The position numbers and the translations under genes are program-made. Source: Blautia schinkii DSM 10518 (GTDB taxonomy: Bacteria > Bacillota > Clostridia > Lachnospirales > Lachnospiraceae). From it: a stretch of DNA of 64,000 bases. The DNA lies in the NCBI GenBank assembly GCA_000702025.1, contig JNKJ01000032.1:1-64000 (forward strand), in the 5' to 3' direction. Under the pieces are notes generated by a model. That model worked only from the letters and a program-made list of their open reading frames with translations, had not been told where the DNA came from and made no database searches. This document shows positions 300 to 59,573 of this stretch, piece after piece. Position 1 is the first letter of the stretch; every line of letters begins with the position of its first letter.

Positions 300-396
300 G
301 ACACTGCCAACACCCCGCCCCGGATTTCCTTCCCCTCACCTTCTTCTACTTTTTCTCCCCCCTGTACGGTGGATGTCGCTTTCGCCGGAAGATTTT
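300..396 (-). repeat. Structured repeat, copy 5: left flank and 5' arm only
   Basis: Read on the minus strand, 396 down to 300 matches the left end of the full repeats: a CTTCCGGCGAAA start, a run of G, then AGTAGAAGAAGGTGAGGGG, and an arm that begins like copy 3 (GGAAGGAAATCCGG). The match stops near 300. The loop and the pairing arm are absent, so this is a truncated copy. Confidence 0.55.
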
Positions 397-454
397 TAAC
401 GCGGGAGGTTATACTGGCGTAGGGCTGTGGCGGCCTAGCGGCAGTCCAGTGGTA

Positions 455-535: not shown

Positions 536-727
536 GAGGTAAAAAAGGTTATGGAGATTTGAGCTGTTCACTGTTATGAGTAGGTTATAATGAAATATCA
601 AAGGCACGCTATACAGCGCACTATCCAGCGAACCCTCATACTACGTACACATAGCACAGTCACAATTAAGAGCCAACAATTATAAGTACGGCCAAGACAG
701 CAGCCTTTTTTCCGACCTCAACAAATC

Positions 728-1020
728 TTCCGGTGTAGGCCACAGCCTTCAGGAAGGGGGTGGGAACGTGGAGGTAGGTGAGAGGGAGGAACTTGGGGAC
801 CTGGGCAGGTGTTGTCCGCGTTGGGCGGATTTTGCGGAAGCGCGCCTGAAAATCCAGCGCTTACGGAGACTTAAGCGCGAACGCTCTTCGTGAGCGCTTT
901 AGTCGCAGTTAGCGATTAGTTGAAGGCAAGCGAGCATCCGCCCAACGCGGACAACACCTGCCCCGGCCCCCAAGTTCCTCCCTCTCACCGTTCAACACCT
1001 TTCCGGGGAATCCCTTCCCC
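728..1020 (+). repeat. Structured long-hairpin repeat, copy 1 (full)
   Basis: The arms at 777-830 and 936-989 are inverted repeats of 54 bases with only two mismatches; the loop is 831-935. The loop is nearly the same as in the copies at 9437 and 57554, while the arm sequence is different in each. The left flank (728-776) begins CTTCCGG and contains GGAAGGGGG. The right flank (990-1020) reads GTTCAACACC, then TTCCGGGGAATCCC. The element ends on the stop codon of the minus-strand alcohol dehydrogenase at 1020. It could fold as RNA or single-stranded DNA and may end that operon's transcript. It carries no open reading frame of its own. Confidence 0.85.
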
Positions 1021-2171: not shown

Positions 2172-2296
2172 AATTTTATTCTCCTTTTCTGGGGGGCGAA
2201 GCGGATTATGCGAATCCGCCTCGCTATTTATTCCAAGCAGTTGCAAGTAGATATTACAATCCACATCGGTATTTGCTTTGAGCAGATATTCACAAT

Positions 2297-2434
2297 CTAC
2301 TTCATTATCTGCATTATGCAGATAATCCTACTCTGCTTCATTACTTGCATTACGCAGATATTCCTACTCTGCTTCATTACTTGCATTATGCAGATATTCC
2401 TACTCTGCTTCATCACTTGCTTCTAGCAGATATT
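2297..2434. repeat. 36-bp tandem repeat array between iolB and the dehydrogenase gene
   Basis: About four units with a 36-base period: TACTCTGCTTCATTACTTGC followed by ATTATGCAGATATTCC, with a few substitutions between units. Units are contiguous, so this is not a CRISPR array. The tract fills most of the 291-base gap 2172-2462, which holds no gene. It lies within the inositol transcription unit and would be transcribed. The word GCAGATATTC is shared with the 16-base array at 6901-7038. Confidence 0.85.
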
Positions 2435-2462
2435 TTCATAGCTCCTGTGCTGTGTGACGAGT

Positions 2463-3251: not shown

Positions 3252-3298
3252 AATTCATACCTCTTCTCTATGTCTCTATGGCTCATTTAGTCATTTCA

Positions 3299-3455
3299 CA
3301 GTTCGCTTATGTTTCGCATAGTCCGCTTATGTTTAATCGCAGTTCGCTTGGGTTTCGTATGGTCTGTTTAAGCTTAATCGCAATTCGCTTGGGTTTCGTA
3401 TGGTCTGCTTAAGCTTAATCGCAATTCGCTTGGGTTTCGCATGGTCTGCTTAAAC
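3299..3455. repeat. 41-bp tandem repeat array between iolD and iolB
   Basis: Three good copies and a degenerate fourth of a 41-base unit that starts CTTAATCGCAATTCGCTTGG and ends GGTCTGCTTAAG. The copies differ by a few substitutions. It occupies most of the 228-base gap 3252-3479, inside the inositol operon. Its unit shares no clear similarity with the 36-base array in the next gap. No gene or promoter is evident in the gap. Confidence 0.85.
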
Positions 3456-3479
3456 TTTCACACAGCTCACTTTATTGCA

Positions 3480-6900: not shown

Positions 6901-7038
6901 CTCAGTAGATATCGCCTCAGCAGATATTGTCTCAGCAGATATTCATCTCAGCAGATATCCTTCTCAGCACATATCCGTCTCAGCAAATATTCATCTCAGC
7001 AGATATTCATCTCAGCAGATATCCGTTTCAGCAGATAT
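6901..7038. repeat. 16-bp tandem repeat array at the 3' end of the ABC permease gene
   Basis: Nine contiguous units of CTCAGCAGATATTCAT or close variants; the first two are 15 bases, the rest 16. The last unit overlaps the end of the permease gene, encoding its final Cys-Asp-Ile-Cys and stop. The array therefore lies in the 3' untranslated part of that operon, before its terminator. No spacers are present, so it is not a CRISPR array. It shares GCAGATATTC with the 36-base array at 2297-2434. Confidence 0.88.
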
Positions 7039-7663
7039 CACAATTGTCATAGCACCTGATAGAAATACGACAGGAAACTGCAAAGATAAGGAATACCAGC
7101 AGGAGATTTATAAGTGACAGGATTATTTTGTTAAAATCGAGCGGAGCTGCAGCCAGGTTGAGTAGTTTGGCGAACCCAATTACAATGAGTGCCGCTCCGG
7201 CGTATGCGAAGATAATTATTAATTCTATCTTTTCTGGACCTCTGTGAGTAATGTAAAGAAACGCAAGTGATAAGCTGCCCGCACATAGGGCAATCGACGC
7301 TGAAAAAAGAGTCATATTCACAAAGGCAGTGATTGTTATGGCTTTTGTGAATATGACAGGCAGTGCGAACACAGTTCCGGTGCCGATTCCCACAGCAATG
7401 ATCAAAAGCAGGAGCATATATTTACTTTTCACAATATCACTCCGCTTAAGCGGGGCCGGAACAGCGAGTTTATCCCACTTCACACTGTTGTCCATGGAAA
7501 ATGTGGAGGTGATGGTGGTACTGAAAATCAGTATGGGATTTATGGAAACAAAGCTGCTCTTATTCGTAAATGCACAATAGGCTGACAAAATGATTGTCAT
7601 GATCACGTATACAGTCATCGTCTTTTTAAGGTTGTAAAAATCCTTGATCAATAATCCTCTCAT
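7028..7663 (-). CDS. ABC-2 type membrane permease
   Basis: A 211-residue membrane protein with about six hydrophobic segments (near residues 15-33, 45-55, 85-110, 112-132, 146-168 and 180-200), starting MRGLLIKDFYNLKK, a typical N-terminus of short ABC-2 permeases. It should pair with the ATPase encoded just upstream; the start overlaps the ATPase stop by four bases (ATGA), so the two are translationally coupled. The substrate cannot be told from sequence. In this GntR-ATPase-permease layout the family usually exports peptides or drugs, or senses envelope stress. Its last four residues and stop lie within a tandem-repeat unit. Confidence 0.82.
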   Translation of the reverse strand: MRGLLIKDFYNLKKTMTVYVIMTIILSAYCAFTNKSSFVSINPILIFSTTITSTFSMDNSVKWDKLAVPAPLKRSDIVKSKYMLLLLIIAVGIGTGTVFALPVIFTKAITITAFVNMTLFSASIALCAGSLSLAFLYITHRGPEKIELIIIFAYAGAALIVIGFAKLLNLAAAPLDFNKIILSLINLLLVFLIFAVSCRISIRCYDNCDIC

Positions 7664-9436: not shown

Positions 9437-9724
9437 GGGGAAGGGGATTCCCCGAAAAGTTTTCGTACGGTAAGCGGAAGGAGCTGGGGCAGCGGGGGTG
9501 GCGGTGGCTTTGGCAGGCATTGCTCGCTTCCCTTCAACTAATTGCCAACTGCGACTAAGACGCTCACGAAGAGCGTTCGCGTCTAAGTCTCCGTAGGCAA
9601 TGGATTTTCAGGCGCGCTTCCGCAAAATGCCTGCCAAAGCCACCGCCACCCCCGCTGCCCCAGCTCCTTCCGCTTACCTTCTTCTACGTTTTCACCCCTT
9701 CCTGGAGGTTGTGTTTTTCTCCGG
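9437..9724 (-). repeat. Structured long-hairpin repeat, copy 2 (full)
   Basis: A perfect 52-base inverted repeat (9469-9520 with 9627-9678) encloses a 106-base loop. Read on the minus strand, the loop is closely similar to the loops of copies 1 and 3, whereas the arms share almost nothing with theirs. The flanks match too: GGAAGGGGTGAAAACGTAG on one side and TTTTCGGGGAATCCCC on the other. The left end runs into the hydrolase gene, supplying its final codons and stop at 9692. The other end abuts a promoter. No open reading frame within. Confidence 0.88.
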
Positions 9725-10531
9725 TTGGTTTAGAAAGTTTAAGATGTGGTCGTTGAAGTCCTTTGCCTCTTCATAGGCGGCATGGCCAAGGCCTTGGTAT
9801 ATAAGCAATTCGCTGTCTTTTATTTTAGATGAGAGTTCTGGAGCGGAATTTGGACCGACGATTTTATCGTTGTCGCCTCCGATAATTAGAGTTGGGCAAG
9901 TGATTTTATTTAATTCAGGGTAGGAATTATGTGTAATGCATGTTTCGGCTTGTATAAGAAATCTTTCAAAGTCCTTTGGTTTTCCGAAATTTCCAAGAAG
10001 CCGGTAGAGAAGGCGTGACTTTTTTAGATATTTTTCTGAATATGATTTTTCTGCTGTATCCATCATTAAGCCTTTATAGTTGCCTTGTTTAGCCATTTCT
10101 ATCCAGGTATGAATCACTTTGGCTGTGGTTTCGTTTTGTTTTGATAGAGTTACTGCCAACACGAGTTTATTTACCAATTGGGGATAATCAATCGCCAGGT
10201 ATTGGGCTATCATTCCGCCTTGTGATACTCCTAAAATGTTTGCGTTTGAAATTCCAAGGGTTTTCATCGCTTCGGCTTGGTCTTTGGCCATATCTCTGGT
10301 AGTATAGCCCGCTTCTAAGTGATTTTTCCTGCTGAACAGATACACTTTAAACCTCTTGGCAAATTGCTTATAGCTTAATGCAAGGGCGATTGCTTGTGTC
10401 TGCCCGTGAACAGGAGATAGACCATCCCCCAAACCTGGTAAGATAATCAGTGCCTGCTGGCCTTGTCCAAACTCAATATAATTCATTGTTTCTCCGATTA
10501 CTACTTGATGGCATTTTGAACCGTAAAACAT
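9692..10531 (-). CDS. Alpha/beta hydrolase
   Basis: A 279-residue alpha/beta-hydrolase-fold protein of unknown substrate. The nucleophile elbow is GVSQGG near residue 102, the oxyanion region is LPGLGDG near 31, the acid is probably the Asp in GGDNDKIVG near 223, and the catalytic His is in GLGHAAYEE near 252. ATG 10531 is preceded by GGAGAGG. It follows a TetR regulator by four bases and is presumably controlled by that protein through two palindromes upstream, suggesting a role in handling the compound TetR senses. Its last eight or so residues (about EKNTTSRKG) are encoded by the end of the structured repeat, so the original C-terminus may have been replaced. Confidence 0.88.
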   Translation of the reverse strand: MFYGSKCHQVVIGETMNYIEFGQGQQALIILPGLGDGLSPVHGQTQAIALALSYKQFAKRFKVYLFSRKNHLEAGYTTRDMAKDQAEAMKTLGISNANILGVSQGGMIAQYLAIDYPQLVNKLVLAVTLSKQNETTAKVIHTWIEMAKQGNYKGLMMDTAEKSYSEKYLKKSRLLYRLLGNFGKPKDFERFLIQAETCITHNSYPELNKITCPTLIIGGDNDKIVGPNSAPELSSKIKDSELLIYQGLGHAAYEEAKDFNDHILNFLNQPEKNTTSRKG

Positions 10532-12506: not shown

Positions 12507-12582
12507 TCTCCTCCTACTAACTAATACCTGCATTAAAAGTATTATAACTATACGTCTCTCAAAACTTCCTCCCTCAACACCC

Positions 12583-12717
12583 CTTCCGGCGAAAACTCCA
12601 GCCTCCAAGAAGGGGGCTAAAACGTAGAAGAAGGCGAGGAGAAGAAATTCCGTCTCCCCCCGCCCACAGACTCCTTCTCCTCGCCGTTCAACACATTTCC
12701 GGGGGCCCTCTTTCCCA
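12583..12717 (+). repeat. Structured repeat, copy 4: core deleted
   Basis: Both flanks match the full copies (left CTTCCGGCGAAAAC, AAGAAGGGGG and AAAACGTAGAAGAAGG; right GTTCAACACATTTCCGGGG). Between them only a short hairpin remains: GGCGAGGAGAA (12633-12643) pairs with TTCTCCTCGCC (12675-12685), and the conserved loop is absent. It ends next to the stop codon of the LacI gene at 12718. Confidence 0.75.
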
Positions 12718-21713: not shown

Positions 21714-22075
21714 AATGCGCAACCAGACCGATAAGCCGGGTTATGTCGTTGGGTGATCATCTATCTAGGCCAACCGTTGCCGGCTGGCTCAAGCGACCCA
21801 CCTGAAAGCACGACGGGCAGCCGTATCGCTTTCTTTTCGGTCTTGCTTCGAATGGAGTTTACATGTGCCCGTCCTGTTACCAGGACGGCGGTAGTCTCTT
21901 ACACTGCCTTTCCACCCTTACCCTGGGCTTTAGCCCGGGGCGGTTTATTTCTGTTGCACTGGTCTGGGAGTCACCTCCACCGGACGTTATCCGGCATCCT
22001 GCCCTATGAAGCCCGGACTTTCCTCGTCTGAACCCTTTCGTCTGTCCAGCCGCGATCACCTGGCCTGCTTGCGCA
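21714..22075 (-). ncRNA. rnpB: RNase P RNA
   Basis: The minus strand contains GAAAGTCCGGGCTTCATAGG (near 22024-22005), the 5' P4 strand of bacterial RNase P RNA. Near the 3' end, AACCCGGCTTATCGGTCTGG (near 21743-21724) matches the conserved terminal region. The ends pair: TGCGCAA near 22075 with TTGCGCA near 21716 forms P1. The RNA is about 360 nt, in the normal range, and matures tRNA 5' ends. A consensus-like promoter lies directly upstream. The exact ends are estimated from P1. Confidence 0.95.
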
Positions 22076-31529: not shown

Positions 31530-31614
31530 TGCGGAAGATGGGACTTGAACCCACACGAGCGCATTGCTCACAAGATCCTTAGTCTTGCTCGTCTGCCAGT
31601 TCCGACACTTCCGC
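31530..31614 (-). tRNA. tRNA-Leu with anticodon AAG
   Basis: The minus strand folds as a class II tRNA: acceptor GCGGAAG with CTTCCGC, a long variable arm (GAGCAATGCGCTC), and a T loop GGTTCAAGTCC. The anticodon stem CAAGA/TCTTG closes the loop CTAAGGA, so the anticodon is AAG (codon CUU, and others if A34 is edited to inosine). CCA is not encoded. Leu identity agrees with the D-arm (AACTGGCAGACGAGC). A consensus-like promoter lies upstream. Most bacterial Leu tRNAs start with T, C or G in the anticodon. Confidence 0.93.
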
Positions 31615-50965: not shown

Positions 50966-51127
50966 ATGCACCGCTCCTTTCGTCTGCTGTGGATTGCTCC
51001 AATCCCCGCATAGGTAACTTTATTTAGTATGAATGGTCTTTGGTTGTGCGAGGATTTAGGTATATTATACAAATAATTTGTGGTTTTGGCAATAGATATG
51101 GTGATTTTTAACCAATTTTTAAGATTG
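50966..51127. other. Intergenic gap between divergent units
   Basis: No gene. A minus-strand promoter for the kinase-like gene should lie here (TATAAT-like sequence near 51060-51067), but I could not settle on a pair of boxes. Confidence 0.3.
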
Positions 51128-51160
51128 GAAGGGGCACCGCGAAGGTTGTTGAACGGTAGG
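51128..51160 (-). repeat. Structured repeat, copy 6: right-flank remnant
   Basis: On the minus strand this reads ACCGTTCAACAACCTTCGCG, then GTGCCCCTTCC, which lines up with the right flank of copy 1 (ACCGTTCAACACCTTTCCGG, then GGAATCCCTTCC). The loop and arms are missing. It lies in the gap before the Bce-type operon. Confidence 0.45.
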
Positions 51161-57540: not shown

Positions 57541-57553
57541 AAAAATATTAAAA

Positions 57554-57842
57554 CTTACGGCGAAAGGAACAATCCAACTAGAAGGGGACGGTAACGTAGC
57601 GGAAGGTGGCGGAAGGAAATCCGGTGTGGGAGCGTTGGCGCTGGCCTTGTCAGGCATTTTGCGGAAGCGCGCCTGAAAATCCATCGGTTACGGAGACTTA
57701 GCTGCGAACGCTCTTCGTGAGCTGCTTAGTCGCAGTTAGCGATTAGTTGAAGGGAAGCGAGCAATGCCTGACAAGTACAGCGCCAACGCTCCCGCACCGG
57801 ATTTCCTTCTGCCACCGTTCACCACGCTTCCAGGGGCCCCCT
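57554..57842 (+). repeat. Structured long-hairpin repeat, copy 3 (full)
   Basis: The arms at 57605-57657 and 57764-57816 (53 bases) are complementary except at four positions, two of which are G-T wobbles. The 106-base loop is nearly the same as in copies 1 and 2; the arms differ from both. The left end resembles copy 4 (CTTACGGCGAAAGGAAC) and the right flank reads ACCGTTCACCACGCTTCCAG. It ends on the stop codon of the thioesterase gene at 57842 and begins near the tnpV remnant. Confidence 0.86.
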
Positions 57843-58330
57843 TAAAACCCATTCTTAGACCTATCTAATCTCATAGCCTTCCTCTGCATCCCCGCCTCAT
57901 ACCGTGCCTTCTCCGCCTCCCCTGAAATCTCAAGCCCCGGCACAGTAAGCGGCTTTTCCTCCGCATCCATAGCCACCATCACCAGAAACGCCCGGTTCAC
58001 AGAATACCGCATCCCATCAGACCGCTCCACATACGTATCAATTTCCACCTCCATGGACGACCTGCCCACACAGGTAACATAACCGATGAGCACCAACAGC
58101 TCGCCCTCATAGGTAGGCTCCTTAAACTGCAGGTTGTCAATCGCTGCGGTTGTCACACGTTTCGTCCCGGCATGGCGCATAGCCACCACTCCGGCCACTT
58201 CGTCAATCCACTGCATGAGGATACCCCCAAACAGCCGCCCTCCGGAATTCAAATGCTGGCGCATGATCAAATGCACCTGCTCTGTACGGGAATCCTCCAC
58301 TTTTCGGGTCTGCCTTACACTTTTTTCCAT
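57842..58330 (-). CDS. Acyl-CoA thioesterase, hotdog fold
   Basis: A 162-residue thioesterase of the YciA/BACH-like group that hydrolyses acyl-CoA. The catalytic region is RLFGGILMQWIDEVAGVVAM near residues 32-51 (with the Asp in WIDE), followed by TAAIDNLQFKEPTYEGELLV. ATG 58330 follows GGAGGAGG; the frame extends to 58414 without a good start. Length and layout are those of single-domain family members. It stands as a unit between malic enzyme and a structured repeat that abuts its stop. Confidence 0.88.
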   Translation of the reverse strand: MEKSVRQTRKVEDSRTEQVHLIMRQHLNSGGRLFGGILMQWIDEVAGVVAMRHAGTKRVTTAAIDNLQFKEPTYEGELLVLIGYVTCVGRSSMEVEIDTYVERSDGMRYSVNRAFLVMVAMDAEEKPLTVPGLEISGEAEKARYEAGMQRKAMRLDRSKNGF

Positions 58331-58400
58331 AAATACCTCCTCCGCAGAGGATACGCTTATGCCGCAGTAATCCCCCGCAGTGACAATGGCCTGCATATTT

Positions 58401-59573
58401 TTATATCCGTGCAACTCCGGTATCTCTTGCTGCTTTCGCCACAGCCTTCGCTACTTCCTGCACCACTCTCTTATCAAATGGATTCGGAATTATGTAATCC
58501 GGGTTGAGGTCTTTTTCGTCAATGAGGCCGGCAATCGCATAAGCGGCAGCTACCTTCATCTCGTCATTGATATCCCTGGCACGTACATCCAGCGCTCCGC
58601 GGAAAATCCCCGGGAAAGCCAGAACATTGTTGATCTGGTTCGGGAAATCGCTGCGTCCTGTTCCCACAACTGCGGCTCCTGCTGCCTTGGCCTCTGCAGG
58701 CATGATCTCCGGCACCGGATTTGCCATTGGGAAAAGGATGGGGTCCTTAGCCATAGATGCCACCATCTCCGCTGTCACAGTGCCCGGAGCAGAAACGCCC
58801 ACAAACACATCTGCGCCCTTCAGCATCTCGCTGAGAGTTCCTTGCTTCTTACTGCGGTTGGTGATCTTCGCCATCTCTATCTTCTCTGCATTCAGACCCT
58901 CACGGCCCTCATAGATAGCACCGGTACGGTCACACATGATCACGTTCTTAAGTCCCAGACTCACCAGAAGCTTGATGATCGCAATTCCCGCCGCACCCGC
59001 GCCGGAGGTCACCACCGTAACCTCGTCCAGCTTCTTGCCGGTAAGCTTGAGCGCATTAATAAGCGCCGCACACACAACAACAGCAGTTCCGTGCTGGTCA
59101 TCGTGGAAAATCGGAATATCACAGCATTCCTTCAGTCTGCGTTCAATCTCAAAGCAGCGCGGTGCGGAAATATCCTCCAGGTTTACACCGCCAAAGCTTC
59201 CTGCCAGCAGGCTTACCGTCTTTACGATTTCATCCACATCCTTGCTGCGGATGCAAAGCGGAAAAGCATCCACATCGCCAAAGCATTTAAAAAGTGCACA
59301 TTTTCCTTCCATAACCGGCATCCCGGCCTCAGGACCGATGTCGCCAAGTCCCAGCACGGCGGTACCGTCAGTGACAACTGCCACCATATTATGACGGCGG
59401 GTATATTTATAAGAAAGATCCACGTCCTCTGCAATTTTCAGGCACGGCTCCGCTACACCCGGAGTATAAGCTACGGAAAGCTCTTCCGGAGTACTTATCT
59501 CTGAACGGGTGATGACCTCAATCTTACCGCCCCATTTTTCATGCTGCTGCAATGCAAATTCTTTTTTATCCAT
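58401..59573 (-). CDS. NAD(P)-dependent malic enzyme
   Basis: A 390-residue short-form malic enzyme that decarboxylates malate to pyruvate with reduction of NAD(P). Marks: SVAYTPGVAEPCLKIAED near residues 33-50, the catalytic region VVTDGTAVLGLGDIGPEAGM near 66, metal-ligand stretch IPIFHDDQHGTA near 150, and nucleotide motif SGAGAAGIAII near 188. The form lacking the phosphotransacetylase domain is usual in Firmicutes. ATG 59573 follows AAAGGAGC. It lies between the thioesterase and smpB as a single gene. Confidence 0.95.
   Translation of the reverse strand: MDKKEFALQQHEKWGGKIEVITRSEISTPEELSVAYTPGVAEPCLKIAEDVDLSYKYTRRHNMVAVVTDGTAVLGLGDIGPEAGMPVMEGKCALFKCFGDVDAFPLCIRSKDVDEIVKTVSLLAGSFGGVNLEDISAPRCFEIERRLKECCDIPIFHDDQHGTAVVVCAALINALKLTGKKLDEVTVVTSGAGAAGIAIIKLLVSLGLKNVIMCDRTGAIYEGREGLNAEKIEMAKITNRSKKQGTLSEMLKGADVFVGVSAPGTVTAEMVASMAKDPILFPMANPVPEIMPAEAKAAGAAVVGTGRSDFPNQINNVLAFPGIFRGALDVRARDINDEMKVAAAYAIAGLIDEKDLNPDYIIPNPFDKRVVQEVAKAVAKAARDTGVARI

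Follow-up and report, generated by a model that had tools for sequence, protein, structure and literature searches.

A high-copy hairpin repeat with variable, mutually complementary arms and a conserved tip in Blautia schinkii and other Lachnospiraceae

REPINs have been described as inverted doublets of palindromes (PMC3116915), and the REP sequences themselves are reported to measure 20-40 bp (PMC3733652). IS110/IS1111 elements are reported to target REP and attC structures (PMC11187229), and template switching has been proposed for RNA genes as the process that keeps stems paired (PMC8794818). The hairpin repeat described here, found by motif and model searches in about 100 copies in the 6.68-Mb genome of Blautia schinkii DSM 10518, resembles REPINs and BIMEs, as these are portrayed in PMC3116915 and PMC3733652, in its intergenic position, its many copies, its inverted palindrome doublets, the compensatory changes in its stems, and the presence of IS110-type insertions. 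It differs from them in that each half is a long hairpin with a structured tip, the stem sequence varies between copies, and no link to a Y1 gene was found. Similarly, it shares with MITEs a dispersed, non-coding unit with inverted terminal repeats, in which no transposase of its own was found, whereas each terminal repeat is here a long hairpin, the spacers are mostly unrelated, and neither a parent transposon nor a target duplication was found at the loci and sites compared. The likeness to the template-switch hairpins treated in PMC8794818 lies in one arm apparently being copied from the other in a single event; those hairpins belong to RNA genes, whereas here the process would act on the stems of a dispersed repeat, with the tip resisting it. 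We rate the element as a variant form of dispersed palindromic repeat, with REPINs as the closest kind.

The window, that is, the whole 64-kb stretch of DNA that was analysed, is contig 29 of a source genome of 6,679,327 bases. The three copies announced by the first-pass annotation were found where it had placed them, copy 2 lying on the minus strand; a conserved 5' flank prolongs each of them, and three remnants were detected in addition (Table 1). Each of two core motifs occurs three times in the window, a number reached by no shuffle. In copy 1, a variable left arm precedes the tip and the complementary right arm follows it. The inverted repeats of copies 1 (762-830 with 936-1004, 69 nt, 87%) and 3 (57590-57658 with 57763-57831, 69 nt, 86%) extend at this length into the non-pairing feet. 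The arms of copy 2 form a perfect inverted repeat of 53 nt (100%), and its predicted folding energy is -186.2 kcal/mol as RNA (z -15.9) and -111.4 kcal/mol as DNA (z -16.1). On its outer side, copy 1 adjoins a minus-strand gene for an iron-dependent alcohol dehydrogenase (1020-2264; Pfam) at the stop codon, and the outer end of copy 3 runs into the 3' end of a minus-strand ORF of the thioesterase family (57842-58414). Copy 1 faces its truncated partner, which has an arm remnant upstream and in which the core motif is absent, over the 300-bp spacer. Copy 2 faces the shortened copy over 2.8 kb containing three ORFs, which encode an alpha/beta hydrolase, a TetR-type regulator, and a third product without a Pfam match. 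Intergenic tandem arrays also occur in the window (2270-2449, 3255-3459, and 6913-7056, with units of 36, 41, and 16 bp) and show no apparent relation to the hairpins.

Table 1. Positions of hairpin copies, their parts, and remnants in the window
Feature	Position	Strand	Parts	Basis
Left foot of the truncated partner of copy 1	339..408	-		HMM match, 300-bp spacer, sequence
Copy 1	708..1018	+	5' flank and left foot 708-778; tip 829-936; right foot 988-1018	Foot HMM matches, inverted repeats, core motif, ORF, Pfam
Copy 2	9439..9743	-	Right foot 9439-9470; arms 9469-9521 and 9626-9678, tip between arms; left foot and flank to 9743	Inverted repeats, foot HMM matches, fold
Shortened copy, tip not recognisable	12569..12715	+	Left foot 12569-12634; right foot 12684-12715	HMM
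Isolated right-foot remnant	51125..51156	-		Weak HMM match, E 7e-4
Copy 3	57546..57847	+	Left foot 57546-57606; tip 57656-57763; right foot 57815-57847	Repeats, core motif, HMM, Pfam

Across the genome, an 18-nt core motif gave 97 matches at up to two mismatches and its reversed control none; one of these matches (C1:216143) corresponds to locus L087, which has neither core end. A right-foot motif gave 102 matches at up to three mismatches, again with none for the control. Among the additional copies in this genome, some have a core that has diverged or a tip that has been lost. Six contigs (C1, C2, C24, C33, C34, and C43) start within a hairpin tip or arm, and thus the repeat breaks the assembly.

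Read from 5' to 3', a hairpin consists of a conserved flank, an outer pairing, a conserved foot, a variable arm, the tip, the complementary arm, and the right foot. The outer pairing lies near GAAGGGG/CCCCTTC and, as judged by eye, its two sides vary in concert in several copies. The conserved foot, GGAAACGTAGTGG.AGG facing CCGTTCAACACCTTTCCGGGG, is interrupted by internal loops, and the hexamer ACGTAG is conserved in its left part, within the longer conserved foot and not beside a simple stem, where the GTAG or CGTC of a REP would stand. The average aligned length of the arms is about 57 nt, and the tip, of about 105 nt, has conserved helices and loops of its own. Eight copies of this genome accommodate a palindromic domain of about 165 nt in one tip helix (for example, L004:2078-2245); elsewhere this domain was found only as two fragments, one of them in the truncated copy L047, and it had no Rfam match at E values up to 1 (L004, L050). 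At four places the right foot occurs in tandem with a spacing of about 34-35 bp (C12:50586/50621, C54:668/703, C19:100894/100928, and C56:11398/11433), perhaps as nested ends or through slippage.

The distribution of the element is patchy. Counting the own genome in both cases, the model search detected it in 20 out of 60 genomes of the genus and in 18 out of 299 of the family; 24 genomes sampled from other families of the order gave no match. In data holding one genome per species, the exact pattern matched 73 stretches, whose titles are mostly Lachnospiraceae, Clostridia, or Eubacteriales. The same pattern had no match in IMG/VR, and a BLAST search of plasmids and phages with copy 3 returned none. 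The family had not been recognised in the first-pass annotation. In the comparison with Rfam, no hairpin match reached the gathering score for the window or for copy 1, L004, L050, and L072. Permissive Rfam matches to microRNA, CRISPR-repeat, and IRES models lay far below their gathering scores and were discarded as chance matches on a palindrome. The sole Rfam matches in the window were RNase P RNA class A (21716-22071, minus strand) and a tRNA (31530-31614, minus strand). In the open-licence literature, preprints excluded, no account of a repeat of this kind was found for Blautia or Lachnospiraceae.

Most often, two hairpins stand back to back as one unit. Neighbouring cores less than 1.6 kb apart in the own genome, in a list with some rounded positions, were oriented (-,+) in 28 out of 28 cases, and so were all 49 pairs of left feet less than 1.5 kb apart, which derive from overlapping loci and represent 40 distinct spacers under 3 kb. 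In relatives, (-,+) neighbours were found at eight loci and (-,-) neighbours at three (L162, L176, and L182). Single hairpins exist too. The spacers are mostly unrelated, with four weak similarities among them. At five orthologous intergenic sites (L136, L189, L150, L133, and L188) the element is missing in a relative, and at three such sites (compared with L005, L041, and L007) the own genome carries a pair where the relative lacks pair and spacer alike. The idea that the spacer is host DNA trapped between two separate insertions was dropped as a general account of the spacers because of this joint lack at three sites. A unit missing in a relative could also represent a loss, and no target-site duplication was seen at the compared sites, where flanking genes are just 66-81% identical. 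No recurrent neighbouring protein family was found among the loci examined, the largest clusters of neighbouring proteins being, by eye, transporters and regulators. RVT_1 has six matches in the genome, a reverse transcriptase having been considered as the mover.

Pairing of the arms is general. The own-genome loci contain 99 motif stretches, of which 11 (L087 among them) are without a core end and eight are cut at a contig edge; the remaining 80 copies, in which both core ends and the complete flanks are present, all pair, none having been removed for poor pairing and arm values at contig edges being excluded. Within these 80 copies, complementarity of the arms over the 45 nt beside the tip is 97.1%, with a minimum of 91%. 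A long stem beside the tip was likewise present in 83 out of 87 copies examined in relatives and absent in four, in a set from which duplicate, self-complementary, and near-contig-end hits were left out and in which partial hits were widened. The first-pass annotation had proposed that the arms pair in every copy, and had named copies with unpaired arms as the observation that would speak against it; the proposal holds for copy 2 (53/53) and for every testable copy of the genome, none of the 80 failing to pair. It had also described the arms as nearly unrelated between copies. They do differ, although this wording slightly overstates the case: left arms are on average 60% identical between copies, versus 52% for shuffled arms, some pairs reach 80-91%, and one pair is identical (100%). 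Copies of the same genome are related, and so the shuffle tests overstate significance.

Two processes could keep such arms complementary, and the annotation had offered them as alternatives: a functional structure, or the copying of one arm onto the other. If the arms were selected as RNA, G-U would be expected to be tolerated more than A-C on the transcribed strand. The arm mismatches exhibit no strand bias, since wobbles number 31 on one strand versus 27 on the other in the own genome, where 27 further mismatches are transversional, and 89 versus 80 in relatives. When similar copies were compared, 247 substitutions were mirrored in the opposite arm versus 80 single ones, and 37 indels were mirrored versus 34 single, these counts coming from 37 comparisons that reuse copies and are hence non-independent. 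Five symmetric columns of the tip are normally unpaired; among 75 copies, 69 pair at one of them, four at none, and two at all five, with no copy in between. In one of the two exceptional copies (L059) the 3' strand of the tip is a rewritten complement of the 5' strand, and in the other (L025) the rewriting runs in the opposite direction. Copying all at once in both directions accounts for these tips, and stepwise compensation does not; they are two copies in an assembly broken at these repeats, and may reflect assembly error. Altogether, the data suggest arm-to-arm copying at the DNA level.

Paired hairpins resemble each other no more closely (0.589, 14 pairs) than random copies do (0.602), and therefore copying takes place within a single hairpin; the same figures led to the rejection of an exchange of arm sequence between partners. 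Ten young copies in isolate S27M_St_58 carry 47 single changes and 13 mirrored ones, indicating that correction is not fast. At two linked sites in this isolate, the changes are both mirrored in three copies and both single in two, a small sample that fits a conversion tract. The long arms look to be kept by arm-to-arm copying and not by base-by-base selection.

The tip behaves differently. In 75 own tips, 98.6% of cells pair and double changes occur at 16 out of 29 pairs, and pairing falls to 23-42% when the partners are slid by one to three columns. The tips of relatives, in an alignment fitted to the structure of the model, have double changes at 29 out of 29 pairs and 95.9% of cells paired, versus 27-45% when slid. 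Mismatches are kept in 73 out of 75 tips despite the copying pressure and, together with covariation, this is read as selection on a folded strand, either RNA or single-stranded DNA. The two explanations offered at the outset thus seem to apply side by side, the tip being a conserved structure and the arms a product of copying.

The tip also hosts foreign sequence. In L084 it is broken after TTAG, where the gene of an IS110-family transposase (Pfam) follows, and L057 has its break at that point too, followed by a frame that looks similar but is too short for a Pfam assignment. In L212 a foreign junction lies at the corresponding position on the opposite side of the tip, and L077 and L219, both near contig ends, share the same foreign coding-sequence end before AATCC. 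An IS110-family element in a conserved tip, as in L084, is in line with the REP and attC targets of IS110/IS1111 elements described in PMC11187229, with the difference that the host structure is here a hairpin repeat.

Among other explanations, a structured non-coding RNA or an mRNA 3'-end element, for example one protecting upstream transcripts, whose pairing is maintained by selected compensatory mutation, appears unlikely. It would agree with the covariation of the tip, with the prevalence of single changes at low divergence, and with the position of the hairpins, as 20 out of 46 listed gene ends have an outer end within 12 bp of the stop codon (distances here and below come from a crude ORF caller, and the list of 46 includes a few doubtful or repeated rows). 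The own tips, one invariant U-G pair set aside, contain 17 G-U cells versus one A-C; however, seven of the 17 fall at one pair, and relatives have 87 G-U and 44 A-C cells. The unbiased arm wobbles, the mirrored indels, and the tips changed all at once also speak against this explanation. A transcription terminator or insulator at gene 3' ends is improbable. The median distance from an outer end is indeed 13 bp for 41 gene 3' ends versus 113 bp for 70 gene 5' ends, but the profile of the right foot, built from 87 copies, ends without a T run after the hairpin, presence is patchy, and relatives are without the element at the five compared sites. The first-pass annotation had considered an unusual transcription terminator; a plain intrinsic one is made unlikely by this conserved right end.

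Relationship to known mobile palindromes was weighed in the same manner. A giant REPIN or BIME, i.e., inverted palindrome doublets moved as single-stranded DNA by a RAYT (REP-associated Y1 transposase), would account for the inverted doublets at all 28 core and 49 left-foot pairs, the intergenic spread, the IS110 insertion, and the GTAG inside the foot, and compensatory changes are reported in REPIN stems as well (PMC3116915). Nevertheless, it is hardly probable: the Y1 family is represented in the own genome by two fragments only, a PF01797 match is absent in five out of the 20 bearers of the genus (G003, G006, G014, G029, and G380) and present in 23 out of 40 element-free genomes, and arms and tip far exceed the REP length given in PMC3733652. 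Two of these five, the draft assemblies G014 and G380, hint at recent-burst bearers without any Y1 gene. Membership among REPINs thus fails, and a REPIN-like working with another enzyme is possible. The integron attC is a folded-strand site recombined by an integrase within a cassette array. A site of this type, acted on by a tyrosine recombinase, would fit the combination of a variable stem and unpaired features that are conserved on one strand; the repeat is instead dispersed and not in a cassette array, no gene recurs beside it among the loci examined, and we consider this explanation very improbable.

On balance we incline to regard the element as a non-coding repeat that lies between genes in high copy number, in Blautia and in some further genera of its family, with stems maintained by template switching, a tip that is recognised, and movement in trans. 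The unit, two hairpins around a short and mostly unrelated spacer, would act like a non-autonomous mobile element depending on a trans-acting mover. During DNA synthesis or repair the strand would fold and one arm would serve as template for the other, so that a change in one arm would be written onto the other in one step, as in the correction of a quasipalindrome by template switching, and the sequence of the stem could drift freely. The tip would meet the same correction yet retain its mismatches, which we propose are kept because the imperfect folded shape is recognised, either in RNA or in single-stranded DNA while the element moves. From the sequence comparisons above we infer template switching, mobility, and the role of the tip as the recognised form. 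A bolder reading, which we hold tentatively and think unlikely, is that the repeat represents a mobile element of a new class, spreading in the form of a folded strand, in which the covarying tip would be the handle for an enzyme and one arm would be regenerated at each movement or repair by fold-back-primed copying. Were this true, a stem could change its sequence with pairing kept.

Long matching stems are usually taken as proof of structural selection. The roughly 100 copies in one genome allow two causes to be separated, in paired stems without bias and in a tip that keeps its mismatches, and caution that RNA function can be overestimated from covariation when stems are long. The origin and upkeep of long hairpins thereby become testable in one organism. 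For the bacteria themselves, the repeat makes up a sizeable share of the intergenic DNA in some Blautia, where it is also a landing site for an IS110-family element and a breakpoint for assemblies.
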